Positions 17,818-36,795 of a DNA stretch of 64,000 bases are shown here, piece after piece. The number at the start of each line of letters is the position of its first letter. The first letter of the stretch is position 1. This DNA is from Luteimonas sp. JM171 (GTDB taxonomy: Bacteria > Pseudomonadota > Gammaproteobacteria > Xanthomonadales > Xanthomonadaceae): positions 293,846 to 357,845 of the forward strand of contig NZ_CP017074.1 of assembly GCF_001717465.1 (NCBI RefSeq), read 5' to 3'. The notes below the pieces were generated by a model. It worked only from the letters and a program-made list of their open reading frames with translations, was not told the origin of the DNA and made no database searches. Made by a program: the position numbers and the translations under genes.

Positions 17818-17859
17818 TTGATCAAGATCAAGTCCGAGAGGCCCAGCAGCCATAACAAT
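17818..17859 (+). promoter_or_regulatory. Fnr/Anr box and -10 for ccoN operon
   Basis: TTGATCAAGATCAA at 17818-17831 is a perfect match to the Fnr/Anr consensus TTGAT-N4-ATCAA. AACAAT at 17854-17859 sits where a class II -10 is expected (36 bases from the box start). This predicts a start near 17866 and a leader of about 22 bases. Activation at low oxygen is inferred from the family. Confidence 0.85.
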
Positions 17860-17887
17860 ACCGTCCGGACCAGAGACAACTCCCACC

Positions 17888-19381
17888 ATGGCAGACTCCA
17901 TCACCACCACGGCCGTCGACCCCAAGGCGGGGCCGGACGAATCCGTTTCCAAGGGCTATTACAACGACAAGGTCGTGCTCCAGTTCGCCGTCGCCACGGT
18001 CATCTGGGGCATCGTCGGCATGCTGGTGGGCGTGGTCATCGCGGCCCAGCTTTACTGGCCGACGCTGTTCGAAGGCATCCCGTGGCTCAGCTACGGCCGC
18101 CTGCGCCCGCTGCATACCAACGCGGTGATCTTCGCCTTCGGTGGCAGCGCGCTGTTCGCCACCAGCCTGCACGTGGTGCAGCGCACCTGCCACGCACGGC
18201 TGATCTCCGACAAGCTGGCCGCGTTCGTGTTCTGGGGCTGGCAGGCGATCATCGTCGCCGTGGCCATCACCCTGCCGCTGGGCTTCACCCAGAGCAAGGA
18301 ATACGCCGAGATGGAGTGGCCGATCGACATCGCCATCACGGTGGTGTGGGTGGCCTACGCGGTGCTGTTCTTCGGCACCATCGCCAAGCGCCGGGTCTCC
18401 CACATCTACGTGGCGAACTGGTTCTACGGCGCCTACATCATCGCCATCGCGCTGCTGCACATCGTCAACAACCTCGCCCTGCCGGTGAGCCCGGGCAAGT
18501 CCTACCAGGTCTACACCGGCGCGGTCGATGCGATGGTGCAGTGGTGGTACGGGCACAACGCGGTGGGCTTCCTGCTGACCGCGGGCTTCCTGGGGATGAT
18601 GTACTACTACGTGCCCAAGCAGGCCGGCCGCCCGATCTACTCGTACCGGCTGTCGATCGTGCACTTCTGGGCCCTGATCTCCATCTACATGTGGGCCGGC
18701 CCGCACCACCTGCACTACACGGCGCTGCCTGACTGGGTGCAGTCGGTGGGCATGGTGTTCTCGCTGATCCTGCTGGCGCCCAGCTGGGGCGGCGCGATCA
18801 ACGGCATCCTCACCCTGTCGGGCGTGTGGCACAAGCTGCGCACCGACCCGATCCTGAAGTTCCTCATCGTCGCGATCAGCTTCTACATGATCGCCACCTT
18901 CGAGGGGCCGATGATGTCGATCAAGACGGTCAACTCGCTGTCCCACTACACCGACTGGACCATCGGCCACGTGCACGCCGGCGCGCTGGGCTGGGTGGCG
19001 ATGATCTCGATCGGCTCGATCTACTCGCTGATGCCGCGCCTGCTGGGCCGGGAGAACATGTACTCGGTGAAGTGGGTCGATGCGCACTTCTGGGTGCACA
19101 CCCTCGGCGTGGTGCTGTACATCGCCTCGATGTGGATCGCCGGCGTGATGCAGGGCCTGATGTGGCGTGCCACCAACGCCGACGGCACGCTCACCTACGC
19201 GTTCGTCGAGGCGCTCAACGCCACCTACCCCTACTACTTCGTCCGCATGCTGGGCGGCGTACTGGTGGTGTCCGGCATGGTGCTGATGGCCGTGAACACC
19301 TGGAAGACGTTCGCCGCTGCGCGCCAAACCCGCGAGCCGCAGCCGCTGCTGCCGCCCGACCCGACCAACGTGCGCGCCTGA
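17888..19381 (+). CDS. ccoN: cbb3-type cytochrome c oxidase subunit I (CcoN)
   Basis: The product has 497 residues with about 12 membrane segments. It carries haem and CuB histidines: RLRPLHTN (His76), WWYGHNAVG (near residue 222), GPHHLHY (near 272) and [13 protein letters not shown] (near 360). It is the catalytic subunit reducing O2 to water, with haem b, haem b3 and CuB, in the inner membrane. It is first in ccoNOQP. The predicted Anr-dependent promoter fits the high-affinity oxidase being induced under low oxygen. Confidence 0.97.
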
Positions 19382-19396
19382 CGCCCTGGAAAGACC

Positions 19397-20032
19397 ATGA
19401 GCAACAAGCAGAACAAACCCAACAATCCGCACGAGAAGATCGAGAAGAACGTCGGCCTGATGGCGGTGCTGATCGCCGTCGTGGTGTCGATGGGCGGCCT
19501 GGTCGAAATCGTGCCGCTGATGCACGAGGCCGAGGCCGTCGAGCCGCTCCCTGGCGTGGAACCCTACCCGCCGCTGGAGCTGGCCGGCCGCGACGTCTAC
19601 GTGCGTGAAGGCTGCTACAACTGCCACTCGCAGATGGTGCGCACCCTGCGCTTCGAGACCGAACGCTACGGCCACTACTCGCTGGCCGGCGAGTCGGTCT
19701 ACGACCGCCCGTTCCAGTGGGGCTCCAAGCGCACCGGGCCGGACCTGGCACGCGTGGGCGGCCGCTACTCCGACGACTGGCACCGGGTGCACCTGATCAA
19801 CCCGCGTGACGTGGTGCCCGAGTCCAACATGCCGTCCTACCCCTGGCTGGACGAGCGCATGGTGGACCCGGAGCAGGTGACCAGCCGCATGCGCGCCCTG
19901 CAGAAGCTGGGCGACCCGTACAGCGACGAGCAGATCGCGGAAGCTTCCGAACAGGTGGCGGGCAAGACCGAGCTCGACGCCGTGGTGGCTTACCTGCAAG
20001 GTCTCGGCCGCAACGCGCCAAGGGGGCAGTGA
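19397..20032 (+). CDS. ccoO: cbb3-type cytochrome c oxidase subunit II (CcoO)
   Basis: The product has 211 residues: one N-terminal membrane anchor (about residues 21-40), then a periplasmic mono-haem cytochrome c domain with CYNCH at residues 73-77. The distal Met is probably in SNMPSYPW. It passes electrons to CcoN. It lies 15 bases after ccoN and 1 base before ccoQ, so it is in the same operon. Confidence 0.96.
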
Positions 20033-20033
20033 G

Positions 20034-20174
20034 ATGGTGTCCGGAATCGTGACCGTGGTGCTGCTGGTGCTGTTCGTGACCGGCTGGATCTGGGCCTGGA
20101 GCCCCCGGCGCAAGCAGAGTTTTGACGAAGCGGCCCAGCTGCCGCTGGAAGACGACGTGGAGAACAAGCGATGA
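20034..20174 (+). CDS. ccoQ: cbb3 oxidase small subunit CcoQ
   Basis: The product has only 46 residues: MVSGIVTVVLLVLFVTGWIW, then a basic and acidic tail ending EDDVENKR. The single membrane helix followed by a short charged tail is typical of CcoQ/FixQ, which stabilises the cbb3 complex. It starts 1 base after the ccoO stop, and its stop overlaps the ccoP start in ATGA. Position in the operon decides the call. Confidence 0.9.
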   Translation: MVSGIVTVVLLVLFVTGWIWAWSPRRKQSFDEAAQLPLEDDVENKR

Positions 20175-21118
20175 GCCAGGGCTGGTCCCTGTTCGTGATC
20201 GTGCTGGTGCTGGCGCACATCGCCGGCTATGCGTGGCTGCTGTGGTGGACCGCCCGCCGGCGCCCGGGCGATCCCGCGCCCACCGACACCAGCCATGTCT
20301 GGGACGGCGACATCACGGAGTACAACAAGCCGTTGCCGAAGTGGTGGATCAACCTGTTCTACCTCACCATCCTCTTCGCGCTGGGCTACCTGGCCTGGTA
20401 CCCGGGCCTGGGCAACCTGCCCGGCCTCGGGGGATGGACCTCGGCCTCGGAGCATGACATCCAGCGCGCGCGCAACGACGCCCTGCTGGAGGAAACCTTC
20501 GCGGTGCATGCCGGCCAGCCGATCCCGGTGCTCGCGCGCAACGACGAGGCGCTGGAACTGGGCCGTTCGATCTTCGCCAACACCTGCGCCACCTGCCACG
20601 GCTCCACCGCCCAGGGCGCGGTGGGCTACCCCGACCTCACCGACGACGTGTGGAACTGGGGCGGCGAGCCCGAGGACATCCTCACCACCATCCTCGACGG
20701 ACGTGAAGGCATCATGCCGGGCTGGGAGTCGGTGCTGGTGGGCATGGGCGGCGAAACGGCGATGACCGAGATCGTGGCCTACACCCGTTCGCTGTCGCAG
20801 CCCGACGCCCCGCGCGACTACTTCGCCACCCGTGGCGAGCGCCTCTTCGAAGGCCTGTGCGTGGCCTGCCACAACGAGGGCGGCGTGGGCAACCAGGCCC
20901 TGGGCGCCCCGAACCTGACCACCGGCACCTGGCTCTACGGCGGCACCACCGAAGCGCTGCACCAGACCATCGCCAAAGGCCGGCACGGCATCATGCCCGC
21001 CCACCGCGACCTGCTGGGCGAAACCCGCGCGCGGCTGGTGGCGGCCTATGTCTGGTCGCTGTCCAACCCGCCGGAAGAATCCGCTGCGGCCAATGCCGCG
21101 GGGGCCGGGGAACGGTGA
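20171..21118 (+). CDS. ccoP: cbb3-type cytochrome c oxidase subunit III, di-haem (CcoP)
   Basis: The product has 315 residues. Two membrane helices lie near the N-terminus (about 5-25 and 58-80), followed by two cytochrome c domains with CATCH at 139-143 and CVACH at 230-234. It takes electrons from soluble cytochrome c or azurin and feeds CcoO/CcoN. The start overlaps the ccoQ stop by 4 bases. Confidence 0.97.
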   Translation: MSQGWSLFVIVLVLAHIAGYAWLLWWTARRRPGDPAPTDTSHVWDGDITEYNKPLPKWWINLFYLTILFALGYLAWYPGLGNLPGLGGWTSASEHDIQRARNDALLEETFAVHAGQPIPVLARNDEALELGRSIFANTCATCHGSTAQGAVGYPDLTDDVWNWGGEPEDILTTILDGREGIMPGWESVLVGMGGETAMTEIVAYTRSLSQPDAPRDYFATRGERLFEGLCVACHNEGGVGNQALGAPNLTTGTWLYGGTTEALHQTIAKGRHGIMPAHRDLLGETRARLVAAYVWSLSNPPEESAAANAAGAGER

Positions 21119-21414
21119 CCCCCCCGGTCCCCACGTCCGCGCCGGAGCACCCGCCCCGGCCGATGGCACAGAGGCTCGGCGCAATCCTGTGGCCGAGCTT
21201 CTTCGCCGCGGGCGTGACAACGATGGTCTTCTTCGCCCACGTCGACCCGCTGGAACTGCGGGACATGACGTTCCCCGGGCTGCCGATCACCCGCACCATG
21301 GGCTACACGATCGGCTTTTTCACTTCCTGGCTCGCCACCGCGTCCTCCAGCCTCTTCACCTGGTGGCTGCTGCGCCCTGCGAGCCGCTTCAACCGGACGC
21401 TGTCCGGCGACTGA
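21115..21414 (+). CDS. Small two-helix membrane protein of the cco operon
   Basis: The product has 99 residues if translation starts at the GTG at 21115, whose GTGA overlaps the ccoP stop; an in-frame ATG lies at 21163. It has two hydrophobic segments (AILWPSFFAAGVTTMVFFAHV and a second around GYTIGFFTSWLATASSSLFTWWLLRP), a polar loop with DPLELRDM, and a short basic tail. It lacks cysteine pairs and haem motifs. I recall similar short proteins between ccoP and ccoG in related bacteria, without a known function. Tight overlap suggests a role in oxidase assembly or stability; that is inference. Confidence 0.75.
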   Translation: MTPPVPTSAPEHPPRPMAQRLGAILWPSFFAAGVTTMVFFAHVDPLELRDMTFPGLPITRTMGYTIGFFTSWLATASSSLFTWWLLRPASRFNRTLSGD

Positions 21415-21418
21415 AAGA

Positions 21419-22972
21419 ATGTCTGGTCGTATTCCAATCAAGATGCTCGATGACAGCGGGCATGACAGCTACTACGTCAGTGAAGGCAAGATCTATCCGC
21501 GCGAGGTAAGCGGACGCCTTGACCGCCTGCGCAAGCTGGCGGTGTTCTGGCTGCTGGGCATGTTCTATGTCTTCCCTTGGCTGCAGTGGGACGGCCGCCA
21601 GGCGGTGCTGTTCGACCTGCCGGCGCGCCAGTTCCATGTCTTCGGGCTGACCTTCTGGCCGCAGGACTTCGTGTTCCTGGCGCTGCTGCTGATCATCGCG
21701 GCGATGGCGCTGTTCTTCTTCACCGCGCTCGCCGGCCGGCTGTTCTGCGGCTACGCCTGCCCGCAGACCGTCTGGACGGAAGTGTTCCTGTGGATCGAGC
21801 AGTGGACGGAGGGCACGCGCAACCAGCGCATGAAGCTCGACGCCGGCCCCTGGACGCGTGAAAAGGTCCTGCGCAAGACCGCCAAGCACACCCTGTGGGT
21901 GGTGCTGGCGCTGTGGACGGGGTTCACCTTCGTCGGCTTCTTCACCCCCATCGTCGACCTGGGCGCCCGCCTGCCGCGCCTGGAATGGGGCGGCTGGGAG
22001 ATCTTCTGGGTGCTGTTCTACGCCCTGGCCACCTGGGGCAATGCCGGCTTCCTGCGCGAGCAGGTGTGCAAGTACATGTGCCCGTACGCGCGCTTCCAGA
22101 GCGCCATGTTCGATCGCAACACCCTGATCATCGCCTACGACCCGATGCGCGGCGAACCGCGCGGCCCGCGCAAGCGCGGCCTGGGCAGCGTGCTCCAGCG
22201 CGGCCGCGGGCTGCTCGACAAGATCACCGCCTACGACTACGTCTTCCGCGCCGCCCAGCACCCTACCGCCGCCGACAACCGGGCCCATGCCCGCGGCACC
22301 ATCACCTTCGACGGCGAGCTGGACACCCGGGCCGAACCGCTGCCGAAGTTCGAACCCGACGCGCTGGGCGACTGCATCGACTGCACCATCTGCGTGCAGG
22401 TGTGCCCCACCGGCATCGACATCCGCAACGGCCTGCAGTACGAGTGCATCGCCTGCGGCGCCTGCATCGACGCCTGTGACGACGTCATGGACAAGATGGG
22501 CTTCGAGCGCGGCCTGATCCGCTACACCACCCAGAACGCCATCGACGGCAAGCCCAGCCGCGTGCTGCGCCCGCGGATCATGATCTACGGCACCATCCTG
22601 CTCGCCCTGGTGCTGGCCTGGGCCTGGGGCGTGGGCACCCGCAGCCCACTGATCGCCGAGGTCCTGCGCGACCGCAACGCCCTGTACCGGGAAACCGCCG
22701 CCGGGGTTGAAAATGGCTACACGCTGAAGCTCATCAACAAGGGCGACGCGCGCGGGGAGTACAATATCGCCATTGAAAGCGGTCTCGAAGGCCTCCATCT
22801 GGTAGCCGACGACAACGTCTCCCTGGATGCGCAGCAGGTGCTGTCGCTGCCATTGACCATCGCCGCTCCCGACGGCGTCACCGGCCGCCACGACATCGTC
22901 TTCGTGATCGAGTCTTCCGATGGCCAGGTCCGCCAGGAAGTCGACAGCAGCTTCTTTGGTCCCATGCAATGA
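21419..22972 (+). CDS. ccoG: cbb3 oxidase accessory ferredoxin-type protein CcoG (FixG/RdxA)
   Basis: The product has 517 residues with several membrane segments. Cysteine motifs include CGYACP, CKYMCPYARFQ and a di-cluster ferredoxin region (CIDCTICVQVCP, then CIACGACIDACDD). The C-terminus (about 390-517) is an Ig-like IG_FixG domain. CcoG is thought to act as a copper reductase for cbb3 assembly. It starts 4 bases after the small membrane gene and overlaps ccoH by 4 bases. Confidence 0.95.
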   Translation: MSGRIPIKMLDDSGHDSYYVSEGKIYPREVSGRLDRLRKLAVFWLLGMFYVFPWLQWDGRQAVLFDLPARQFHVFGLTFWPQDFVFLALLLIIAAMALFFFTALAGRLFCGYACPQTVWTEVFLWIEQWTEGTRNQRMKLDAGPWTREKVLRKTAKHTLWVVLALWTGFTFVGFFTPIVDLGARLPRLEWGGWEIFWVLFYALATWGNAGFLREQVCKYMCPYARFQSAMFDRNTLIIAYDPMRGEPRGPRKRGLGSVLQRGRGLLDKITAYDYVFRAAQHPTAADNRAHARGTITFDGELDTRAEPLPKFEPDALGDCIDCTICVQVCPTGIDIRNGLQYECIACGACIDACDDVMDKMGFERGLIRYTTQNAIDGKPSRVLRPRIMIYGTILLALVLAWAWGVGTRSPLIAEVLRDRNALYRETAAGVENGYTLKLINKGDARGEYNIAIESGLEGLHLVADDNVSLDAQQVLSLPLTIAAPDGVTGRHDIVFVIESSDGQVRQEVDSSFFGPMQ

Positions 22973-23487
22973 GCGAAAAAACCTCCATCTGGCGCAACCC
23001 GGTCCTGATCCTGGTGTTCGTGCTGCCCGCCATCTCCATCATCGCCGGCGTCGGCCTGCTGGTGATGGCGCTGCGCACCGGCGGCGACGACCCGGTGCTG
23101 GACGAGGTGCGCCGCACCGCCCGCGGCGCCCAGGTCACCGACCTGAGCGCGGACCAGGCCGCGGCCGCCGGCCGCTATGCCGCGGTGGTGCGGGTGGATG
23201 CCGAAAACGGCGCGGTCGAGGTGTTCCCGGTCAGCGGCCGCTTCACCCGCAGCGCCCCGCTGCAGCTGGTGCTCAGCCACCCGGTGAATGCCACCGAGGA
23301 CGTGTTCCTGCAGCTGGAGCCGGCCGACAACGGCTGGCGCACGGAAGCGCAGATCGACGGGTCCCATGACTGGAACCTGCGCCTGTTCCCCTCGGACCGC
23401 GAATGGCGCCTGCAGGGCCGGCTTGAGAGCGGCGAGCTCGCGGCCCGGGTGCAACCGGCACTGCAGGACGCCGGCGAGGAGCCATGA
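22969..23487 (+). CDS. ccoH: cbb3 oxidase assembly protein CcoH (FixH family)
   Basis: The product has 172 residues: one N-terminal membrane helix (about 12-35) and a periplasmic beta-rich domain with SAPLQLVLSHPVNATEDVFLQL and DGSHDWNLRLFPSDREWRLQG, typical of FixH. CcoH binds nascent CcoN and stays with the oxidase. It has 4-base overlaps with ccoG before it and ccoI after it. Confidence 0.9.
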   Translation: MSEKTSIWRNPVLILVFVLPAISIIAGVGLLVMALRTGGDDPVLDEVRRTARGAQVTDLSADQAAAAGRYAAVVRVDAENGAVEVFPVSGRFTRSAPLQLVLSHPVNATEDVFLQLEPADNGWRTEAQIDGSHDWNLRLFPSDREWRLQGRLESGELAARVQPALQDAGEEP

Positions 23488-26862: not shown

Positions 26863-26904
26863 CTGATCCAGATCAAGCCGTGGCCGGCGCGCCCCGGCGA
26901 TAAT
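26863..26904 (+). promoter_or_regulatory. Fnr/Anr box and -10 for azurin
   Basis: CTGATCCAGATCAA at 26863-26876 differs from the Fnr/Anr consensus at one base. GATAAT at 26899-26904 (five of six matches to TATAAT) lies 36 bases from the box start. Predicted start near 26911. Confidence 0.8.
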
Positions 26905-26951: not shown

Positions 26952-27401
26952 ATGAAGCGTTACCTTGCAATCTTCGGACTCGCCCTCCTCGGTGCCGTTG
27001 GCACCGCACAGGCCCAGAACTGCACCATCGCCCTGGAGGGCAACGACCGCATGCAGTTCGACCAGAAGAGCGTCAGCGTCTCGGCCAGCTGCCCGACCAT
27101 CACCGTCGAGCTCAAGCACACCGGCTCGCTCCCGGTCGCGGCGATGGGCCACAACGTGGTGATCACTGAAACCGGCGACGTCGCCGAAGTGGCACAGGCC
27201 GGCATCAAGGCCGGTGCCCCGGCCTACGTGCCGGAAGGCGACGCCCGCATCATCGCGGCCACGGAGATGGTGGGAGGCGGCGAAACGACCTCCATCACCT
27301 TCCCGGGCAACAAGCTCACCGCGGGCGGCGACTACACCTTCTTCTGCTCGTTCCCCGGCCACTCGGGAATCATGCGCGGCAAGGTCGAAGTCACCAACTG
27401 A
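26952..27401 (+). CDS. azu: Azurin (blue copper electron carrier)
   Basis: The product has 149 residues with a signal peptide ending ...GTAQA (residue 21). All type 1 copper ligands are present: His67 in MGHNVV, and Cys132, His137 and Met141 in FFCSFPGHSGIM. These are close to His46, Cys112, His117 and Met121 of mature azurin. Periplasmic azurin can donate electrons to nitrite reductase or cbb3 oxidase. It lies between the oxidase operon and nirK with its own Fnr-type promoter and terminator. Confidence 0.96.
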   Translation: MKRYLAIFGLALLGAVGTAQAQNCTIALEGNDRMQFDQKSVSVSASCPTITVELKHTGSLPVAAMGHNVVITETGDVAEVAQAGIKAGAPAYVPEGDARIIAATEMVGGGETTSITFPGNKLTAGGDYTFFCSFPGHSGIMRGKVEVTN

Positions 27402-27572: not shown

Positions 27573-27614
27573 TTGACCCCGGTCAAGGTGCCCGTTACGC
27601 GCGCGCGAGACCAT
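27573..27614 (+). promoter_or_regulatory. Fnr/Dnr-type box for nirK
   Basis: TTGACCCCGGTCAA (27573-27586) is a perfect palindrome with TTGAC half-sites. GACCAT at 27609-27614 occupies the -10 position, again 36 bases from the box start; it is a weak match. Predicted start near 27621. Confidence 0.75.
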
Positions 27615-27651: not shown

Positions 27652-28818
27652 ATGAAAGTGCTGAAGACCACCCTGATCGCCGCGGCAATCGCCCTTGGCA
27701 TGGGCGTCGCCCCTCCCCCGGCCCAGGCCATGGATGCGATGGACCTGGTGCAGAAGAACATCGCCACCGCATCCGACCTGGCCAACCTTCCCCGCGAACA
27801 GGTGCAGCTGGTGCGGCCCCCGTTCGTGCATGACCACGACCAGGTGGCGACCACCGGCCCCAAGGTCGTGCAGTTCACCATGGCCATCGAAGAGAAGGAG
27901 ATCGTGATCGACGACCAGGGCACCACGATGCAGGCCATGACCTTCGGCGGCAGCATCCCCGGCCCGATGATGGTGGTCCACCAGGGCGACTACGTGGAAC
28001 TGACCCTGGTCAACCCGGCCACCAACACGATGCCGCACAACATCGACTTCCACGCGGCCACCGGCGCCATGGGCGGCGGCGACATCACCATCATCGCCCC
28101 GGGCGAGGAAGTGACCCTGCGGTTCAAGGCCGACCGGGCCGGCACCTTCATCTACCACTGCGCCCCGGGCGGCACCATGACCCCGTGGCACATCATGGCC
28201 GGCATGCACGGCACCCTCACGGTGCTGCCGCGCGACGGGCTGAAGGATGCCGAAGGCAACCCGCTGCGCTACGACAAGATGTATTACATCGGCGAAACCG
28301 ACTTCTACATCCCGCGGGACGAGGACGGCAACTTCAAGAGCTACGCCTCCGCCGCCGAGTCCCTGCCGGAGACGCTGGACGTGATGCGCGGCCTGGTCCC
28401 CACCCACGTCGTCTTCAACGGCGCCGTCGGGGCCATCACCGGCGAGAACTCCATGCGCAGCGAAGTCGGCGAAACGGTGCTCTTCGTCCACTCCACCGCC
28501 ACCCGCGACACCCGGCCCCACCTCATCGGTGGTCACGCCGACTACGTCTGGGAGCACGGCAAGTTCGGCAACGACCCGGACGTGGACTACGAGACCTGGT
28601 TCGTCCGCGGAGGCTCCGCCGCCGCTGCCCTCTACACCTTCAAGCAGCCCGGCCTCTACGCCTACGTCAACCACAACCTGATCGAGGGCATCGAACTGGG
28701 AGCGGCCGCCCACATGCTCGTGGACGGCGACACCTGGGATCACGATCTCATGACCCTTCCCTCCGCCCCGGGCGCGATCAAGCCCGACACCGACCAGTCC
28801 ACGCTCCCCGAGCGCTGA
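27652..28818 (+). CDS. nirK: Copper-containing nitrite reductase (NO-forming)
   Basis: The product has 388 residues with a signal peptide ending about ...PAQAMD. Two cupredoxin domains follow. Type 1 copper ligands are His129, Cys170, His180 and Met185. Type 2 ligands are His134, His169 and His341. Catalytic Asp132 and His295 are both present. It reduces nitrite to nitric oxide in the periplasm, probably fed by the azurin encoded upstream. Every key residue is intact. The upstream Dnr-type box suggests induction by low oxygen and nitrogen oxides. Confidence 0.97.
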
Positions 28819-28878: not shown

Positions 28879-28921
28879 GCGTCCAGCCTCCTCGCCGGCC
28901 CAAGCCCTCCCTCCCGGAGCC

Positions 28922-29033
28922 GGGCCCCGCCGCGGTCGGGAGGTCTTTGCGTGTAAGTAAAGGAGGAGGCCGCAGCCGCAGGCGGAGGCCGGGGGACATG
29001 GAGCGCAAAGGCCTCCCGGCCGCGGCGGGGCCC
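28922..29033. repeat. Long inverted repeat (30-base arms)
   Basis: The arms at 28922-28951 and 29004-29033 are reverse complements at 28 of 30 positions. In plus-strand RNA both differences become G-U pairs, so all 30 positions would pair. A 52-base purine-rich spacer containing repeated GGAGGCC separates them. It may be a family-specific intergenic repeat or a stable RNA hairpin. No coding frame explains it. Confidence 0.75.
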
Positions 29034-29074
29034 CTCAGTCCGAGACGCCTCCGGTCACGCCATCCGCTGTCCCC

Positions 29075-29110
29075 TGTGCTGCCCGTGCTGCCCGCGCTGC
29101 CCGTGGTGCC
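29075..29110. repeat. Four 9-base tandem units
   Basis: TGTGCTGCC, CGTGCTGCC, CGCGCTGCC and CGTGGTGCC follow each other without spacers. It is a short degenerate tandem repeat with no evident function. Confidence 0.6.
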
Positions 29111-29150
29111 GCACACCATCAATCACTGCACCCAAAAAACGGGCTCCCCA

Positions 29151-29192
29151 TTGACCAGGGTCAAGGCCCTCCCCCCAAACCCGGCGTAACGT
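29151..29192 (+). promoter_or_regulatory. Fnr/Dnr-type box and -10 for hemN
   Basis: TTGACCAGGGTCAA (29151-29164) is a perfect TTGAC palindrome. TAACGT at 29187-29192 is in the -10 position. The predicted start is 29199, one base before the hemN ATG at 29200, which would make a leaderless or nearly leaderless message. Confidence 0.78.
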
Positions 29193-29199
29193 GCACCCC

Positions 29200-30600
29200 A
29201 TGCAGATCCCCACCGCCCATTTCGACGCGGAGCTGGCCAGGCGCTACAACCGCCCCGGCCCGCGCTACACCTCGTACCCCACCGCCCCCCGCTTCAATGA
29301 AGCATTCGGCGAAGCGGAGCTGCGCGAGGCGGCGATGGCGAGCAACGGCGACCCGATCCCGCGGCGCCTCTCGCTCTACGTCCACGTGCCGTTCTGCATG
29401 AGCCCCTGCTTCTACTGCGGCTGCAACCGCATCATCACCCGCGACACCACCCGCGGCGATGCCTACCTCGCCCGCCTTTACCGCGAGATCGCGCTGGTGG
29501 CCGAGCTCTTCGACCGCGACCGCGAAGTGATCCAGCTCCACTTCGGGGGCGGCACCCCCAACTTCCTCGCCCCGGGCCAGCTGGCCGAAGTGGTGGACGC
29601 CCTGCGCGCCCAGTTCCACTTTTCCGACCACCGCGACCGCGACATCTCGATCGAGCTCGATCCCCGCTACATCGGTCCGGCGGAGGTTGCCGAACTGGCC
29701 GCGATCGGCTTCAACCGCGCCAGCCTGGGCGTGCAGGATTTCGACCCCGCGGTGCAGGAGGCCGTCAACCGGGTGCAATCGGTGGAGGAAACCTTCGCCG
29801 TGGTCGACGCCTGCCGCGCCAACGGCTTCCGCTCGGTCAACCTGGACCTCATCTACGGCCTGCCCCTGCAGACCCTGGAAGGCTTCGGCCGCACCCTGGA
29901 CCTGGTGCTGCAGGCACGCCCCGACCGGCTCGCCGTCTACAGCTACGCGCACCTGCCGCACATGTTCAAGGCGCAAAGGCAGATCGACGGCGACCAGCTG
30001 CCGGACCCGGAGACCAAGCTCGCGCTCCTGCAGATGGCCATCCAGCGCCTCACCGCCGCCGGCTACGTGTACATCGGCATGGACCATTTCGCCCTTCCCG
30101 ATGACGAGCTGGCGCGCGCCCAGGAGCGCGGCGGCCTGCACCGCAACTTCATGGGCTACACCACCCACGCCGACACCGACCTGGTGGGCCTGGGGGTGAG
30201 CGCGATCAGCCACATCGGCGACACCTTCAGCCAGAACCCGCGCGACCTGCCCTCGTGGCAGATCGCCCTGGACGAAGGCAGGCTGCCGGTGTTCCGCGGA
30301 CTGCAGTTGGACGAGGACGATTGCCTGCGCGCGGACCTCATCCAGCGCCTGATGTGCCAGGGCGAAATCCCAGTGAACGCGCTCGAGCGCCGCTACCTGA
30401 TCAATTTCCCGGAATACTTCGCCGATGCCCTGGATCGCCTGCACCCGCTGATGGAGGACGGACTGGTGCGGGTGGAGGCCGAAAGGATCATCGCAACCTC
30501 GCGCGGACGGCTCCTGTTGCGTAATATTGCGATGTGCTTCGATCGATATCTCAATCAGCCGGACGTACCGGCCACTCCCCGATTCTCACGTGCCATCTGA
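29200..30600 (+). CDS. hemN: Oxygen-independent coproporphyrinogen III dehydrogenase
   Basis: The product has 466 residues from the ATG at 29200; an in-frame GTG at 29191 is less likely. The radical-SAM cluster motif with the extra HemN cysteine is at Cys66, Cys70, Cys73 and Cys75 (CMSPCFYCGC). The N-terminal RYNRPGPRYTSYPTAP and FGGGTPNFL motifs are typical of true HemN rather than the HemW relatives. It decarboxylates coproporphyrinogen III without oxygen, supplying haem to the cytochromes encoded nearby. The Fnr-family regulator gene begins 19 bases downstream. Confidence 0.95.
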   Translation: MQIPTAHFDAELARRYNRPGPRYTSYPTAPRFNEAFGEAELREAAMASNGDPIPRRLSLYVHVPFCMSPCFYCGCNRIITRDTTRGDAYLARLYREIALVAELFDRDREVIQLHFGGGTPNFLAPGQLAEVVDALRAQFHFSDHRDRDISIELDPRYIGPAEVAELAAIGFNRASLGVQDFDPAVQEAVNRVQSVEETFAVVDACRANGFRSVNLDLIYGLPLQTLEGFGRTLDLVLQARPDRLAVYSYAHLPHMFKAQRQIDGDQLPDPETKLALLQMAIQRLTAAGYVYIGMDHFALPDDELARAQERGGLHRNFMGYTTHADTDLVGLGVSAISHIGDTFSQNPRDLPSWQIALDEGRLPVFRGLQLDEDDCLRADLIQRLMCQGEIPVNALERRYLINFPEYFADALDRLHPLMEDGLVRVEAERIIATSRGRLLLRNIAMCFDRYLNQPDVPATPRFSRAI

Positions 30601-30619
30601 CCATTCGGGTGGGGTGGCG

Positions 30620-31369
30620 GTGAGTACCCCATTCCCGTTCCAGGACCGGCATACCCTTGCCGACGACGGCGACGAGTTCACCTTCTGCTCCACGTGCGCC
30701 TTTTCCCAGGCGTGCCTGGCCGAGGGCATGGACAAGTCCGGACTGCGCAACCTGCACATGCTGGTCGAGCACACCGGGCCGCTGCACGCGGGCGAGCACG
30801 TGTTCCGCGCCGGCGATCCGTTCGAGGCGATCGCCGCGGTGCGCTCGGGCACGGTCAAGACCTACACCATCGACCGCGACGGCCGCGAGCACGTGCTGGG
30901 CTTCCACTTCCCTGGGGAGGTGATCGGCCTGGACGGCATCGACGGCGACCGCTACCCCTGCAACGCGGTGGCGCTGGACACGGTGATGCTGTGCCGGTTC
31001 TCGTTCCCCAAGATCTCGGTTCTGGCGGCCCAGCTGCCCGGGCTGCAGCGGCACCTGTTCCGCCTGCTCAGCCGCAACATGGGCCGCGCCGCGCTGCTGG
31101 CCGGCGACTGGACCGCCGACCAGCGCATGGCGGCGTTCCTGATGGGCCTGTCGCGGCGGCTTGCCGCGCGCGGGTTCTCGCCGCACCGGTTCCAGCTGAC
31201 CATGGCCCGCACCGACATCGGCAACTACCTGCGCCTGGCGCCGGAAACCGTGAGCCGGGTGCTGCGCCGCTTCCAGAAGGACGGCCTGCTGGCGATCGAC
31301 CGGCGCGACGTCGAACTGCTGGATCCGGCCGGCCTGGAAGCACTTGCCGAGCCGCTGATGCGCGGCTGA
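30620..31369 (+). CDS. anr: Fnr/Anr-type oxygen-sensing transcription regulator
   Basis: The product has 249 residues from the GTG at 30620, preceded by a G-rich ribosome site; the frame is open further upstream into hemN. Cys23, Cys26, Cys32 and Cys125 match the four [4Fe-4S] ligands of E. coli Fnr in spacing. A cyclic-nucleotide-type beta-roll and dimer helix follow. The recognition helix reads PETVSRVLRRFQ with Glu209, Ser212 and Arg213, identical in kind and number to Fnr, which reads TTGAT. It is likely the regulator of the ccoN and azurin promoters. Whether it also reads the TTGAC boxes is unknown. Confidence 0.93.
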   Translation: MSTPFPFQDRHTLADDGDEFTFCSTCAFSQACLAEGMDKSGLRNLHMLVEHTGPLHAGEHVFRAGDPFEAIAAVRSGTVKTYTIDRDGREHVLGFHFPGEVIGLDGIDGDRYPCNAVALDTVMLCRFSFPKISVLAAQLPGLQRHLFRLLSRNMGRAALLAGDWTADQRMAAFLMGLSRRLAARGFSPHRFQLTMARTDIGNYLRLAPETVSRVLRRFQKDGLLAIDRRDVELLDPAGLEALAEPLMRG

Positions 31370-31409
31370 TCCTGCGTCGGCCGCAACGGTCCACGCACTT
31401 GATTCCCGC

Positions 31410-31451
31410 TTGACCCAGGTCAATCCGCCTGGGCAACACCTGCCTCAGCAT
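31410..31451 (+). promoter_or_regulatory. Fnr/Dnr-type box for norB
   Basis: TTGACCCAGGTCAA (31410-31423) is a perfect TTGAC palindrome. CAGCAT at 31446-31451 is at the -10 position but is weak. Predicted start near 31458. Confidence 0.75.
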
Positions 31452-31479
31452 GCCGCCACCATTCCGGAGAGGCGGCAAA

Positions 31480-33753
31480 ATGGATACAACCAGGCGATTG
31501 TGGTGGGGGCTCGGCACCCTGCTGGCGGTGACGTTCGTCATCATGTTGTGGATGGGGCGCGAGATCCACCAGCAGGCACCCCCCTTGCCCGAAAAGATCG
31601 TGACCCAGAGCGGCCAGGTGGTGTTCACCCGGGCCGAGCTGGAAACCGGACGACAGGTCTGGCAAAGCTTCGGCGGCCAGCAGATCGGTTCGATCTGGGG
31701 CCATGGCGCACTGCTCGCCCCGGACTGGTCGGCCGAGTGGCTGCACCTGGAGGCACTGGCGATCCTGGAGATGCGCGCGCAGCACCAGTACGGCATGCCC
31801 TACGACGAACTCGGCGCCGATGACCAGGCCAGGCTCCAGGCCCAGATCCGGTCTGCGCTGCGCACCAACAGCTACGATGCCGCAACCGACACGCTCGTCA
31901 TTTCCGACGAGCGTGCCCGCGCCATCGAGGTGGTTGCCGCGCACTACGATCGCGTGTTCTCCGACGACCCCGGCGCGGCCCACCTGCGCGAGACCTACGC
32001 GCTGCGCGAGAACCCGATCCCGGACGCCGAACACCGGCGCCTGATGTCGGGCTTCTTCTTCTGGGCCTCGTGGGCCACGGTGACCGAGCGGCCCGGCAGC
32101 GACATCACCTACACCCACAACTTCCCGCATGACCCGAAGGTGGGCAACACGCCCACGTCGAGCAGCTTCATGTGGTCGGTGTTCTCGATCCTGCTGATGA
32201 TCGCCGGCATCGCCCTGCTGGTCTGGCACTACGCGGTCAACCACGGCAAGGAGGAGCCGCTGACCCCGCCCAGGACCGACCCGTCGCTCTCGATCCGGGT
32301 CACCCCCTCGATGCGCGCGGTGGGCAAGTACTTCTGGCTGGTGATGGGCCTGTTCCTGGTGCAGATCCTGCTGGGCGCGACCACGGCCCACTACCAGGTC
32401 GAAGGCCAGGCCGCCTACGGCCTGCCGCTTGCGGAGTTCCTGCCCTATACGCTCACCCGTACCTGGCACACCCAGCTTGCGATCCTGTGGATCGCGACCG
32501 CCTGGCTGGCCACCGGCCTGTACCTGGCGCCGGCGATCTCCGGCCATGAGCCGAAGTTCCAGCGCCTGGGGGTGAACTTCCTGTTCATCAGCCTGATCCT
32601 GATCGTGGTCGGCTCGTTCGCCGGCCAGTGGATGGCGGTGATGAACAAGCTTGGCCTGGACCACAACTTCTGGTTCGGCCACCAGGGCTGGGAGTACACC
32701 GACATCGGCCGCTTCTGGCAGATCTACCTGTTCATCGGCCTGCTGCTGTGGCTGGCCCTGATGGGACGCGCGCTGTGGCCGGCGCTCAAGCGGAAGGACG
32801 AGATGTCCTCGATCGCCGGCCTGCTGTTCCTGTCGGTGGTCGCGATCGGCCTGCTGTACGCGGCCGGCCTGATGTGGCGCGAGCACTCGCACATCTCGAT
32901 CATCACCTACTGGCGCTTCTGGGTCGTCCACCTGTGGGTGGAAGGATTCTTCGAGGTGTTCGCGGTCGCCGTGATCAGCTTCATCTTCGTCAAGCTGGGG
33001 CTGGTGCGCGGCAGGAGCGCGACCAACGCGGTGCTGTTCGCGACCATCATATTCATGGCCGGCGGCGTGCTGGGGATCTTCCACCACATGTACTTCTCCG
33101 GCACGACCACGGCGATCATCGCGGTGGGCGCGAGCATCTCGGCGCTGGAGGTGGTACCGCTGGCACTGATCGGCCTGGAGGCCTACGACACCTGGAAGAA
33201 CGGGCAGGCCACGCCGTGGATGGCCCGCTACAAGTGGCCGATCATGTTCTTCCTGGCGGTCAGCTTCTGGAACCTGATCGGCGCCGGCCTGCTCGGCTTC
33301 ATGATCAACACCCCCATCGCGCTGTACTTCATGCAGGGCACCAACCTGACCGCGGCCCATGGCCACACCGCGCTGTTCGGCGTGTACGGCATGCTCGGCA
33401 TCGGCCTGATGCTGTACTGCCTGCGCGGACTGAAGCCCAACCTGGTCTGGCGCGAGGGGCTGATCCGCTCGGCGTTCTGGGCGTTCAACATCGGCCTGGC
33501 GCTGATGACGGTGCTGACCCTGCTGCCGCTGGGGGCGCTGCAGCTCGAGGCCAGCATGGACGTCGGCTACTGGTACGCCCGCTCGGCGGAGTTCATGGAC
33601 CGCCCGATCGTGGACGTGCTGGTCTGGCTGCGCACGCCCGGCGACGTGGTGTTCGCCGCCGGCGCGGTATTGATCGCCGCCTTCGTGGCCTCGCTGTGGC
33701 TGCCCTCGCGCCGCCCGGCGGCCGTGTCCGGGGGTGCCGCCGAGGAGGCGTGA
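31480..33753 (+). CDS. norB: Quinol-dependent nitric oxide reductase (qNor)
   Basis: The product has 757 residues from the ATG at 31480 (GGAGAGG just upstream). The length and the N-terminal periplasmic domain after the first helix (GRQVWQSFGGQQIGSIWGHGALLAPDW) mark the single-subunit quinol type; no norC is present. The membrane core carries the haem and FeB histidines (YWRFWVVHLWVEGFFEV, GIFHHMYFSG, HGHTALFGVYGM). It reduces NO to N2O with electrons from quinol. It directly follows the regulator gene and has its own box. Confidence 0.96.
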   Translation: MDTTRRLWWGLGTLLAVTFVIMLWMGREIHQQAPPLPEKIVTQSGQVVFTRAELETGRQVWQSFGGQQIGSIWGHGALLAPDWSAEWLHLEALAILEMRAQHQYGMPYDELGADDQARLQAQIRSALRTNSYDAATDTLVISDERARAIEVVAAHYDRVFSDDPGAAHLRETYALRENPIPDAEHRRLMSGFFFWASWATVTERPGSDITYTHNFPHDPKVGNTPTSSSFMWSVFSILLMIAGIALLVWHYAVNHGKEEPLTPPRTDPSLSIRVTPSMRAVGKYFWLVMGLFLVQILLGATTAHYQVEGQAAYGLPLAEFLPYTLTRTWHTQLAILWIATAWLATGLYLAPAISGHEPKFQRLGVNFLFISLILIVVGSFAGQWMAVMNKLGLDHNFWFGHQGWEYTDIGRFWQIYLFIGLLLWLALMGRALWPALKRKDEMSSIAGLLFLSVVAIGLLYAAGLMWREHSHISIITYWRFWVVHLWVEGFFEVFAVAVISFIFVKLGLVRGRSATNAVLFATIIFMAGGVLGIFHHMYFSGTTTAIIAVGASISALEVVPLALIGLEAYDTWKNGQATPWMARYKWPIMFFLAVSFWNLIGAGLLGFMINTPIALYFMQGTNLTAAHGHTALFGVYGMLGIGLMLYCLRGLKPNLVWREGLIRSAFWAFNIGLALMTVLTLLPLGALQLEASMDVGYWYARSAEFMDRPIVDVLVWLRTPGDVVFAAGAVLIAAFVASLWLPSRRPAAVSGGAAEEA

Positions 33754-33773
33754 CGGCCCGGCGCATGGCAACG

Positions 33774-33804
33774 AAAGGGGGGCGGAGCAATCCACCCCCT
33801 TTTT
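33774..33804 (+). terminator. Terminator after norB
   Basis: AAAGGGGGGCGGA pairs with TCCACCCCCTTTTT over a GCAA loop, with one mismatch, and ends in T5. It lies 21 bases after the norB stop. Confidence 0.88.
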
Positions 33805-33875
33805 CCTTCCGCCACGCGCAGGGCGGGCGATGAGCGAAGCCCCGGGGAGGCGGGGATGTGCGCGTCGACCGGCGG

Positions 33876-33917
33876 CTGACCTGGGTCAAGAGCCGGGCAC
33901 GGGACTGCCGCCATACT
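33876..33917 (+). promoter_or_regulatory. Fnr/Dnr-type box and -10 for nnrS
   Basis: CTGACCTGGGTCAA (33876-33889) has one mismatch to the TTGAC palindrome. CATACT (33912-33917) is at the -10 position. The predicted start is 33924, one base before the ATG, the same 49-base box-to-ATG distance as hemN. Confidence 0.7.
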
Positions 33918-33924
33918 TGCGACC

Positions 33925-35148
33925 ATGGATACACGACTGTCTTCGCAGCTTTCACTCAATCGCCTTGGCGATGCCCCGCACCGACTGATGTTCTTCGTCG
34001 GCGCCGGCAACCTGCTGCTGGCGATGGCCTGGTGGGCCGCCTGGCTGGGCGCCCTGCGCTGGCCGTTCGCGCAGATGCACCAGCCCTGGCCTTACGCCGG
34101 CTGGCTGCACGCCTTCATCATGCAGTACCAGATGCTGCCCAGCTTCATCTTCGGATTCCTGCTGACCACCTTCCCCAAGTGGATGGGACAGCCGGAATTC
34201 GAGCGCTGGCGTTACGCACCGGTGGGCGTGGGCCTGTTCGGCGGCCAGATCGCAACCCTGCTGGGGGCGGTCGGCTGGGACGCCGGGATCGTGGTCGGGC
34301 TGTTCATGACCATGGGCGGCTGGCTGGCCGGGCTGCTGACCCTGGGCCCGCTGCTGTGGCGCGAGAAGGGCACCACCTGGCACGCCCGCTCGTGCTTTGC
34401 CGCGCTCAGCCTGGGCTTCCTGGGCCTGCTGGCGTGGCTGGCTCACGTGCTGGGCGCGTCGCCGTTCTGGGCCTTCGTGAGCATCAAGATCGGCACCTTC
34501 GGCGTGCTGCTGCCGGTGTACCTGACGGTGGCCCACCGGATGTTCCCGTTCTTCGCCGCCAACGTGGTGCCCGGTTACCAGGCCTGGCGGCCGCTGTGGC
34601 TGCTGGCGGCGCTGTGGCCGCTGAGCCTGGCGCACCTGGTGCTGGAGCTGTTCCACCTGTACGGACTGCTATGGCTGGTGGACGTGCCGTTGCTGGGGCT
34701 CACTGCGTACATGCTGTGGCGCTGGTGGCCGCGCGGCGAGAAGCCGCGGTTGCTGACCGTGCTGTTCGTGGGCGTTGCGTGGCTGCCGCTGACCTTCGCC
34801 CTGTACGCCGGACAATCCATCGCCTACGAGCTGACCGGGGTGTACTGGCTGGGTCGCGGGCCGGCGCACGCGCTGTTCGTGGGCTTCTTCGGCAGCGTGC
34901 TGGTGGCGATGGTCACGCGGGTGACGCAGGGCCACTCCGGGCAGGGGCTGTACATGCCGGGGGTGGCCTGGTTCGCCTTCGTCGCCATCCAGGTGGTGGC
35001 GGTGACGCGGGTGCTGGCCGAGGTACTGCCGGACACGCCGATGTGGCAGGCGGTTTCCGCACTGGGCTGGCTGGTCGTGTTCCTGCCCTGGGTGGCCAGG
35101 ATCGGGCGGATCTACCTGAGCCCGCGCGCCGACGGCCGGCCCGGCTGA
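33925..35148 (+). CDS. nnrS: NnrS family haem/copper membrane protein
   Basis: The product has 407 residues with about 12 membrane helices. It starts MDTRLSSQLSLNRLGDAPHRLMFFVGAGNLL and has conserved family stretches WLHAFIMQYQMLPSFIFGFLLTTFPKW and RMFPFFAANV with scattered His and Met. NnrS proteins protect cells from nitric oxide stress and are usually under NO-responsive control. The position after norB and the upstream Dnr-type box agree. The sirB-type gene follows 12 bases later. Confidence 0.93.
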   Translation: MDTRLSSQLSLNRLGDAPHRLMFFVGAGNLLLAMAWWAAWLGALRWPFAQMHQPWPYAGWLHAFIMQYQMLPSFIFGFLLTTFPKWMGQPEFERWRYAPVGVGLFGGQIATLLGAVGWDAGIVVGLFMTMGGWLAGLLTLGPLLWREKGTTWHARSCFAALSLGFLGLLAWLAHVLGASPFWAFVSIKIGTFGVLLPVYLTVAHRMFPFFAANVVPGYQAWRPLWLLAALWPLSLAHLVLELFHLYGLLWLVDVPLLGLTAYMLWRWWPRGEKPRLLTVLFVGVAWLPLTFALYAGQSIAYELTGVYWLGRGPAHALFVGFFGSVLVAMVTRVTQGHSGQGLYMPGVAWFAFVAIQVVAVTRVLAEVLPDTPMWQAVSALGWLVVFLPWVARIGRIYLSPRADGRPG

Positions 35149-35160
35149 GGAGGTGGCGGG

Positions 35161-35562
35161 ATGATCGAGTTCTATCCGCAGATCAAGCACGCCCACATCG
35201 GCCTGGCCATGGCCAGCGGCGCGCTGTTCGCGCTGCGCGGGGCCGGCGCCCTGGCCAACATGCGCTGGCCGCGCTGGGCACCGGTGCGCTACGCCAGTTA
35301 CACCATCGACACCGCGCTGCTGACCGCGGCGCTGATGCTGCTCACCATCCTGCCGCGCGGGCTGTACGCCAACGGCTGGCTGGCGGTGAAGCTGGTGCTG
35401 CTTGTGGCCTACGTGGTGCTGGGCGTGTTCGCGCTTCGGCGCGCGCGCAGTCGCGCCGGCCGGGCGATCTGCTACGTCGCGGCGCTGGCCACCTTCGCGA
35501 TGATCTACGGCATCGCCCGCGCCCATCATCCGCTGGGGTACCTGCAGGGGCTTTTGGGCTGA
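35161..35562 (+). CDS. SirB family membrane protein
   Basis: The product has 133 residues and four membrane helices. It opens with MIEFYPQIKHAHIGLAMASGALFALRG and has LPRGLYANGWLAVKLVLLVAYVVLGVFALRR, matching the SirB2 family. That family's role is not known; its name comes from a genetic effect on invasion gene expression in Salmonella. The GGAGG upstream and the 12-base gap from nnrS suggest co-transcription in the NO-related unit. Confidence 0.88.
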   Translation: MIEFYPQIKHAHIGLAMASGALFALRGAGALANMRWPRWAPVRYASYTIDTALLTAALMLLTILPRGLYANGWLAVKLVLLVAYVVLGVFALRRARSRAGRAICYVAALATFAMIYGIARAHHPLGYLQGLLG

Positions 35563-35580
35563 AGCAGGACGCCCCGGCGC

Positions 35581-35592
35581 GTATCCTAGTGG
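35581..35592 (+). promoter_or_regulatory. Possible -10 element upstream of the PLP-enzyme gene
   Basis: GTATCCTAGTGG is identical to the string just before recQ. TATCCT at 35582-35587 lies 9 bases before the ATG at 35597. No clear -35 is seen, and read-through from nnrS/sirB is equally possible. Confidence 0.3.
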
Positions 35593-35596
35593 GGAT

Positions 35597-36718
35597 ATGA
35601 GGACCCCCGACTCCATTCCCGCCAACAAGGCTCCCGCCGACGACGCCGAGGGCCAGCGCAGCTGGACCCGCGAAGCGCTGAAGCTCCTGCGCCAGGAGGC
35701 CGCGCGCTCGGCCGACACCCACCTGCTGCGGCTGGCGTTCGAAGGCTTCCCCGGCATCGAGTTCTACTTCAAGGACGAGGCTGCCCACCCGACCGGCAGC
35801 CTCAAGCATCGCCTGGCCCGCTCGCTGTACCTGTACGCGCTGTGCAACGGCCGCCTGCACGCCGGCCAGCCGGTGGTGGACGCATCCTCGGGCAGCACCG
35901 CCATTTCCGAAGCGTGGTTCGCGCGCCTGCTGGGGCTGCCGTTCACCGCGGTGATGCCGGCTGCGACCGCACCGCGGAAGATTGCCGATGTGCAGGCCCT
36001 GGGCGGGCACTGCGACCTGGTGGACGACCCCTCGCAGGTGTACGAGCGCGCCGCGTGGCACGCCGCCAACGGTGCCTGCCACCTGGACCAGTTCGGGCTC
36101 GCGGTCACCGCCACCGACTGGCGCGGCAACAACAACATCGCCGAATCGATCATCAGCCAGCTCGCGGCCGAGCCGCACCCGGAACCAGCGTGGATCGTCT
36201 GCGGCGTGGGCACCGGTGGCACCTCGGCCACCATCGGCCGCTACCTGCGCTACCGTGGCCTGGCCACGGGGCTGTGCGTGGCCGAACCGGCCGGCAGCGC
36301 CTTCGTGCACGCCTGGCGCGGGCGCGACCGCCACGTGCGCTGCAGCCAGCCCACGGTGATCGAGGGCATCGGCCGGCCGCAGGTTGAGCCGGGCTGGGTG
36401 TTCGAGACCGTGGACGAGGTGATCGAGGTGCCGGACGCGGCCTCGATCGCGGCGATGCACGTCCTGAAGGAACACCTGGCACGCCCCTACGGCGGATCCT
36501 CGGGCACCAACCTGGTGGCCTGCCTGCAGCTGGCCTGCCGCATGCGCGAGCAGGGCCGGAAAGGCAGCATCGTCAGCCTGCTGTGCGACCCGGGCGAGCG
36601 TTACGACCAGACCCTGTACGACCCGGTCTGGCTCAGCCGCCAGGGCATCGACCCGGCCCCCTGCGCCAACGCACTGCGCCGCACCCTCGCCACCGGCACC
36701 TGGCAGCCGTTCGCCTGA
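35597..36718 (+). CDS. PLP-dependent cysteine synthase/desulfhydrase-like enzyme
   Basis: The product has 373 residues with a fold-type II PLP signature: the Schiff-base Lys70 in PTGSLKHRLA, the substrate loop SSGSTAISEAWFARLLG (cysteine synthases have a similar S-x-G-N/S-T), and the phosphate-binding loop GVGTGGTSATIGRY. The long N-terminus and the C-terminal CDPGERY stretch resemble the Cds1-like L-cysteine desulfhydrase/synthase group rather than CysK or CysM. The direction of the reaction cannot be read from sequence. Its setting between NO-defence genes and a copper receptor suggests sulfur supply or H2S under nitrosative stress; that is inference. Confidence 0.8.
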   Translation: MRTPDSIPANKAPADDAEGQRSWTREALKLLRQEAARSADTHLLRLAFEGFPGIEFYFKDEAAHPTGSLKHRLARSLYLYALCNGRLHAGQPVVDASSGSTAISEAWFARLLGLPFTAVMPAATAPRKIADVQALGGHCDLVDDPSQVYERAAWHAANGACHLDQFGLAVTATDWRGNNNIAESIISQLAAEPHPEPAWIVCGVGTGGTSATIGRYLRYRGLATGLCVAEPAGSAFVHAWRGRDRHVRCSQPTVIEGIGRPQVEPGWVFETVDEVIEVPDAASIAAMHVLKEHLARPYGGSSGTNLVACLQLACRMREQGRKGSIVSLLCDPGERYDQTLYDPVWLSRQGIDPAPCANALRRTLATGTWQPFA

Positions 36719-36753
36719 CTCCTTGTAGGGGCGGGCAAAAACCATACGCCTGT

Positions 36754-36795
36754 TTGACCTGGGTCATGGGGCCCGGAAGAGCCTGTCGATACGCT
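36754..36795 (+). promoter_or_regulatory. Fnr/Dnr-type box and -10 for the copper receptor gene
   Basis: TTGACCTGGGTCAT (36754-36767) has one mismatch to the TTGAC palindrome. TACGCT (36790-36795) is at the -10 position. The predicted start near 36802 leaves a leader of about 126 bases, the longest of the set. Confidence 0.7.

Follow-up and report, generated by a model that had tools for sequence, protein, structure and literature searches.

The window analysed here is a stretch of 64,000 nucleotides from Luteimonas sp. JM171 (contig NZ_CP017074.1, positions 293,846 to 357,845). Spread over 19 kb within it are seven genes of nitric-oxide and low-oxygen metabolism, for which family models matched ccoN, azurin, nirK, HemN, NorB, NnrS and a copper receptor, in agreement with the gene names given in a first-pass annotation of the same sequence. 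The norB and nnrS proteins had no NCBIfam match, though Pfam matches were present. A gene for an Fnr-type regulator lies in the same cluster. Upstream of each of the seven genes is a palindrome resembling an Fnr box, followed by a hexamer resembling a -10 element (Table 1). The first-pass annotation had listed these palindromes and hexamers, and all seven pairs were found where it had placed them. The subject of this analysis is the distance from box to hexamer and from box to start codon; these offsets (+36 and so on) are given in bases from the start of the box.

Table 1. Genes, boxes and further candidate sites. Positions are those of the window, except where the contig of the source genome (G000:C1) is named.
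Feature	Position	Strand	Detail
Fnr box TTGATCAAGATCAA, upstream of ccoN	17818..17831	+	-10-like AACAAT 17854-17859; ATG at +70
ccoN, cbb3 oxidase subunit I	17888..19381	+	TIGR00780
Fnr box CTGATCCAGATCAA, upstream of azurin	26863..26876	+	-10-like GATAAT 26899-26904; ATG at +89
azurin	26952..27401	+	TIGR02695
Fnr box TTGACCCCGGTCAA, upstream of nirK	27573..27586	+	-10-like GACCAT 27609-27614; ATG at +79
nirK, copper nitrite reductase	27652..28818	+	TIGR02376
Fnr box TTGACCAGGGTCAA, upstream of hemN	29151..29164	+	-10-like TAACGT 29187-29192; ATG at +49, predicted leaderless
hemN, oxygen-independent coproporphyrinogen III oxidase	29200..30600	+	TIGR00538
Fnr-type regulator, 249 aa, GTG start; likely activator of the seven promoters	30620..31369	+	Pfam HTH_Crp_2, cNMP_binding
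Fnr box TTGACCCAGGTCAA, upstream of norB	31410..31423	+	-10-like CAGCAT 31446-31451; ATG at +70 with Shine-Dalgarno
norB, NO reductase with fused cytochrome c-like domain	31480..33753	+	PF22085, PF00115
Fnr box CTGACCTGGGTCAA, upstream of nnrS	33876..33889	+	-10-like CATACT 33912-33917; ATG at +49, predicted leaderless
nnrS	33925..35148	+	PF05940
Fnr box TTGACCTGGGTCAT, upstream of TonB-dependent copper receptor	36754..36767	+	-10-like TACGCT 36790-36795; ATG at +174
TonB-dependent copper receptor	36928..38994	+	TIGR01778
Possible further regulon sites	G000:C1:1651219, 1189204, 2892884, 1204664		OmpW, universal stress protein, DUF411, porin (Pfam)
201-aa protein with a borderline DUF2017 match, leaderless candidate	G000:C1:1501390-1501439 (L116:788-1393)	-	Fnr-like box, -10, ATG +48

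Spacing between box and hexamer

In all seven palindromes, a hexamer with A at its second and T at its sixth position (A....T) starts exactly 36 bases from the start of the box; at the other 45 offsets (14 to 59), A....T was found for one of the seven boxes or for none. When the bases of each promoter were shuffled separately, none of 20,000 shuffles gave A....T in all seven promoters at any offset from 20 to 49. The window contains 15 TGAYNNNNRTCA sites, or 30 counted in both orientations, and only these seven have A....T at +36, all of them oriented toward the named gene downstream. The rate of A....T across the window is 0.0245. The geometry of the seven boxes is not due to chance. All seven boxes correspond to the FNR-box consensus TTGATNNNNATCAA or a close variant, with 0-3 differences, and five are within 2 mismatches of TTGATNNNNATCAA. 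Three other genes of the window, fnr, cds1 (PALP) and sirB, had no box by the rule used for orthologs, and their orthologs had weak boxes only (score 8/10), in a minority of cases.

Up to 20 kb around hemN was taken from 40 relatives, and the offsets of A....T from strict boxes were counted in 39 loci. Among 181 oriented strict boxes, A....T was found 77 times at +36, 16 times at +37 and 0-9 times at each other offset; about half of the 181 cannot score, since each palindrome was counted in both orientations. We also compared box-bearing orthologs promoter by promoter, thinned so that those kept had <70% identity in the 22-base spacer. In the thinned set, in which the mean identity of the spacers was 34-39%, A....T stood at +36 in 75 of 83 promoters of hemN, 28 of 33 of nnrS, 45 of 50 of norB, 16 of 18 of ccoN and 16 of 18 of azu. 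These fractions are slightly generous because the choice of box favoured +36; the count over 181 boxes is free of that bias. The retention of the +36 spacing at the orthologous promoters of many relatives is in line with class II activation and speaks against chance. The proposal of the first-pass annotation, that the fixed spacing matches class II activation by an Fnr/Crp-type protein, thereby gains support at the sequence level.

The comparative support is thinnest for nirK and the copper receptor: among the orthologs listed, a box with a -10 was found for two nirK genes, and one receptor ortholog had a box with no -10. In relative G033 (L292), the corresponding site has a box with a -10; the next gene there is one for a DUF2946 protein, and the receptor gene comes after it. 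This DUF2946 gene is missing from the window (36754-36928), where the receptor follows directly after the box.

Start codons of hemN and nnrS

The ATG codons of hemN (29200) and nnrS (33925) both lie at +49, 8 bases past the end of the -10 hexamer, and +48 is in both genes the base just before the ATG. A class II arrangement with the box centred near -41.5 is consistent with the -10 at +36 in all seven promoters and with this position of the ATG, and it is plausible that starts predicted at +48 are good to within 1-2 bases. Because the ATG sits where transcription is predicted to begin, the hemN and nnrS mRNAs should be leaderless. The first-pass annotation did not include this placement of the ATG directly after the predicted start. 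Leaderless mRNAs are reportedly found in Xanthomonas.

Orthologs were scored in the best 80 of 588 confirmed HemN loci in named genomes, mostly Lysobacteraceae (Lysobacter, Luteimonas, Pseudoxanthomonas, Stenotrophomonas and Thermomonas); the hemN count covers 79 of these, one locus not having been entered. A box was found upstream of hemN in 74 of the 79, a -10 in 73, and an ATG at +47..+50 in 72. One of the seven exceptions (L166) reflects a wrong choice of box (+119), and is the same gene as L028, which has its box at +49. For nnrS, 24 of 32 orthologs had some box and 19 had an ATG at +48..+51. Box and -10 were present in all 44 norB orthologs, none of which had an ATG at +46..+51, and the starts were spread from +53 to +87 in norB and from about +79 to +101 in azu.

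Shine-Dalgarno pairing was scored in orthologs that had a box, a -10 and an ATG at +45..+110, with a threshold energy of -4 or better. The threshold was reached by 20% of the putatively leaderless hemN genes (n = 104) and 12% of the nnrS genes (n = 40), and by 87% of norB (n = 67) and 95% of azu (n = 20). Among box-bearing orthologs, the values for leaderless hemN and nnrS were no better than those of shuffled sequences. In the window, the energies are -1.7 for hemN and +1.9 for nnrS, which leaves both with an AUG lacking a Shine-Dalgarno site.

The placement of the hemN start differed between lineages. In families f2, f3, f11 and f12, hemN started mostly at +47..+50, with L097, L100 and L101 as the exceptions among the loci listed. 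Other families within the same order contributed 14 loci (L227-L240): ten with box and -10, one without a box and three that were unreadable. Of the ten, eight start at +66..+82, L237 has an ATG at +48, and L238 has either an ATG at +41 or a GTG at +71. Other orders of the class were represented by 28 loci (L199-L226), 11 of which had a box with a -10 at +35..+37. The likely hemN starts in these 11 were at +67..+77 and none had an ATG at +47..+50; L201, L207 and L215 offered only GTG or TTG as start candidates, and in-frame GTG codons occurred as well at +40 in L201 and +46 in L204. L200 had a box, a -10 and the hemN ATG at +100, and the remaining loci had no box, no -10, or were unreadable. 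Six more loci from other orders (L241-L246) included one with box and -10, with its start at +96 or +111. Two loci titled Steroidobacter and Peristeroidobacter (L169 and L186; Steroidobacterales) have the hemN ATG at +48, which speaks against a strict boundary at the order. The class II box is thus widely shared, and predicted leaderless hemN is restricted to some lineages, with Lysobacteraceae at their centre.

A pattern consisting of the box, A....T at +36 and an ATG at +48..+50 was matched 101 times across 49 genomes of the genus, that of the window among them, compared with 27 times for a control pattern with the ATG at +54..+56. From the fixed geometry and the placement of the ATG together, we predict that the hemN and nnrS messages of Lysobacteraceae are activated by Fnr and leaderless, and the conserved ATG serves as evidence, drawn purely from sequence, for start sites to within 1-2 bases.

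In norB, an in-frame ATG at 31450 lies inside the -10 hexamer, 30 bases before the ATG at 31480, which has a Shine-Dalgarno site. Gene callers may take 31450 as the norB start in place of 31480. An ATG at +40 was found in 24 of the 181 oriented boxes of the relatives, mostly because the -10 hexamer ends in AT and is followed by G.

Regulators, mechanism and alternative explanations

The regulator encoded in the cluster aligned with A. fischeri FNR with an E value of 7.8e-50, including the recognition helix (ETxSR), whose residues have a role in FNR. A CxxCxxxxxC motif and a later Cys align with the cysteines of A. fischeri FNR, as expected of the FNR subfamily from its domains and cysteines. 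The E value against the DNR chain 3dkw was 1.5e-10, and the protein is thus closer to FNR than to this DNR structure. The best of the models listed for it was NCBIfam Fnr (NF008365). The Crp helix-turn-helix family had five matches in the genome, the cluster regulator among them. A second Fnr-type regulator (L001), an Fnr/FixK-like protein of 266 aa with FixK2 and FNR as best structure matches, is encoded outside the cluster; the others are a Crp-type protein (L003), which we take to be Clp, an Lrp/AsnC-type protein (L004) and a match under the cut-off (L005). The first-pass annotation had tied the seven genes into one regulon across 19 kb; with a second Fnr-type regulator in the genome, a single regulon is one possible reading.

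We consider it very probable that the seven palindromes are class II operators of an Fnr-type protein with weak -10 elements, and that the hemN and nnrS mRNAs are leaderless; class II Fnr activation is in any case the ordinary, and likely, reading of such a geometry. In the mechanism that we propose, an Fnr-type activator would bind the palindromes, centred 41-42 bases upstream of the transcription start that we infer, and the Fnr box would stand in for a -35 element while sigma-70 polymerase used the weak -10 hexamer at its fixed distance from the box. The oxygen (perhaps NO) status would activate the regulator and place polymerase on the seven promoters. The hemN and nnrS ATG codons follow the -10 by 7-9 bases in most orthologs and by 8 in the window, and initiation would be expected there from the usual distances between -10 and start. 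Their mRNAs would begin at or within 1-2 bases of the AUG and be translated without a Shine-Dalgarno site, and ccoN, azu, nirK, norB and the copper receptor, with the same geometry, would have leaders of ~20-125 bases.

The alternative that survives best is that two Fnr-type regulators split the set, with the 266-aa Fnr/FixK-like protein acting on the TTGAT-type boxes of cco and azu and the cluster's Fnr on the TTGACC-type boxes of nirK, hemN, norB, nnrS and the receptor. Both regulators are encoded in the genome, and position 5 of the box is T in the cco and azu boxes of the window and C in the other five. In addition, the cluster's Fnr and nnrS co-occur in an identical 24 of 48 relatives of the same genus. 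However, orthologous hemN boxes have T at position 5 in some cases and C in others, which weakens the idea that this base separates the regulators. Four relatives (G008, G010, G015 and G043) that lack the cluster's Fnr and have the other regulator keep the hemN start at +48/+49, although the box in G015 is weak (8/10 positions). Seven relatives (G003, G007, G013, G016, G019, G036 and G044) have the cluster's Fnr without the other regulator; five of them hold a further Fnr-type match with 38-39% identity, and only G013 and G016 are therefore clean cases. The hemN start lies at +48..+50 in relatives without the cluster's Fnr and in those without the other regulator alike. We regard the division as doubtful, the simplest reading being that the specificities of the two regulators overlap.

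It is also conceivable, but improbable, that a second promoter farther upstream gives leadered hemN and nnrS mRNAs, and that the ATG is where it is only because the Fnr promoter is packed tightly against the gene; compact genomes often have short intergenic regions. Against this, Shine-Dalgarno pairing at the hemN and nnrS ATGs was not above the shuffled level, and the distances between box, -10 and ATG vary by no more than ~2 bases even though the spacers have diverged, while the norB and azu starts are spread. Finally, an origin of the seven by chance, from GC-rich DNA with frequent TGAYNNNNRTCA sites (219 of this type in the genome, with ~11 chance matches expected) and a hexamer of low information, is refuted by the match in seven of seven at +36 and in only seven of 30 oriented sites, by the shuffles and by the conservation of the geometry in dozens of genomes.

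Several observations weigh against class II operators with leaderless hemN and nnrS. The seven hexamers share 25 of 42 letters with TATAAT, a poor match. The regulator scored 202.2 bits with NF008365, under the curated cut-off of 228, and outside the genus its co-occurrence with nnrS was not exact. The arrangement was absent in 13 of 32 nnrS orthologs, 8 of which had no box at all, and in 7 of 79 hemN orthologs, 5 of them without a box. Shine-Dalgarno pairing of ccoN was intermediate (62%, n = 13) and weak in the window (-2.9). Enrichment of the leaderless pattern was only weak across the 32 genomes from other families, with 77 matches compared with 56 for the control. In Neisseria gonorrhoeae, an anaerobically induced transcript starting with AUG was inactive as a leaderless fusion (PMC3032703, cited, like the papers below, from part of its text), and an AUG at the 5' end is therefore no proof of translation.

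A regulon of this kind is expected from the precedents of E. coli FNR, Pseudomonas Anr and DNR/NnrR. Of the 23 E. coli promoters that FNR activates and whose start is known, 19 have the site at -41.5 (within 4) (PMC3688515). The promoters described here resemble these in the FNR-box consensus and in the predicted centre near -41.5 with a -10; they differ in the start codon at the transcription start, which is predicted here for hemN and nnrS and is not described in the part of that paper cited. In Pseudomonas, Anr boxes stand upstream of hemN and azu, and hemN adjoins anr in some species (PMC6588701). The boxes at hemN and azu are shared with this core regulon, for which leaderless starts are not mentioned in the text cited; the set described here adds ccoN, nirK, norB, nnrS and the copper receptor within 19 kb. 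In DNR/NnrR regulons, FNR-like boxes occur at nirK, nir, nor/norB, nnrS and hemN in various species, and a copper receptor (nosA) belongs to one NnrR regulon; the words Xanthomonas and leaderless are absent from the main text of that paper (PMC1274295). The cluster regulator differs from DNR in its FNR-type cysteines and its closer match to FNR. In Magnetospirillum, 5% of 5'-UTRs are leaderless (PMC9549626, cited from part of its text). The hemN and nnrS genes resemble such mRNAs in having an ATG at the predicted start site and no Shine-Dalgarno site, and they differ in that the ATG is tied family-wide to an activator box at a fixed distance, with starts predicted from sequence. Among the papers listed from the open-licence literature, no title or abstract opening dealt with hemN or nnrS as leaderless genes activated by Fnr, which does not prove absence. 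The new element is that the start codon of hemN and nnrS is conserved at the point where transcription is predicted to begin, while the Fnr regulon itself is expected.

We suggest, tentatively, that the distance between box and start codon sets the translation mode of Fnr-activated genes in this family. If so, the leaderless class would comprise hemN and nnrS and, in single relatives, hemB, a PALP gene beside nnrS and DUF2946 genes ahead of the copper receptor; the other class would be leadered Fnr-activated genes that have a Shine-Dalgarno site. Under low oxygen, a set of messages would then be translated by the leaderless route, which departs from the leadered hemN of most other lineages sampled. 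The cluster offers a test case, in which neighbouring genes with the same geometry and probably the same activator would differ in translation mode, and leadered hemN orthologs from other lineages could serve for comparison.

Matches elsewhere in the genome and in relatives

The genome, a single contig of 2.99 Mb, contains 219 TGAYNNNNRTCA-type sites (438 oriented). The first-pass annotation had proposed a genome scan with the pattern to find further members. Its 41-base core had 25 matches, 7 of them in the cluster, but ~11 would be expected by chance among the 438 oriented sites from the A....T rate in the window, and many of the other 18 are for that reason probably chance. Some of the matches sit within genes. 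The pattern read backwards had no match in the genome, a weak control because backward boxes are rarer too (18, compared with 219). The pattern alone is a weak predictor genome-wide.

A box with a -10 at +36 was found upstream of genes for OmpW, a universal stress protein, a DUF411 protein and a porin, identified by Pfam, which may be further members of the regulon. A perfect TTGAYNNNNRTCAA box lies at G000:C1:1312033 (L111), 262 bases upstream of a HemB (ALAD) gene, with no -10 at +36. The source genome also holds a candidate for a leaderless start in the gene for a 201-aa protein with a borderline DUF2017 match, in which an Fnr-like box and a -10 at +36 are followed by an ATG at +48.

We examined 20 places with the leaderless pattern in relatives and scanned 12 of them with Pfam. 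The matches were to HemB (ALAD), a HemN_C protein, a PALP protein, a Phos_pyr_kin protein, a DUF6522 protein, and DUF2946 proteins ahead of copper receptors; five of the 12 scanned proteins had no Pfam match. Two matches (L289 and L291) had been considered as truncated haemoglobins, a reading that was dropped when no Pfam match was found. An identical stretch of 50 bases from box to ATG occurs in five relatives (L277 and L295, with matches in G010, G027 and G034), where it precedes a small protein without a Pfam match and, presumably, efflux-like genes. It looks mobile, possibly a shared metal-resistance element, and does not clearly point to Fnr control.

At four of the 20 places (G001, G047, G024 and G031), the ATG at +48 opens a tiny open reading frame (ORF) that is followed by a cytochrome bd oxidase gene, identified by Pfam in the G047 copy, and the ORFs were rejected on that ground as genes of their own. 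In L280, L281, L282 and L296, an Fnr box is followed by an ORF of 5-9 codons with its ATG at +48 and by the start of the bd oxidase near +71. These ORFs possibly encode a leaderless leader peptide ahead of the oxidase.

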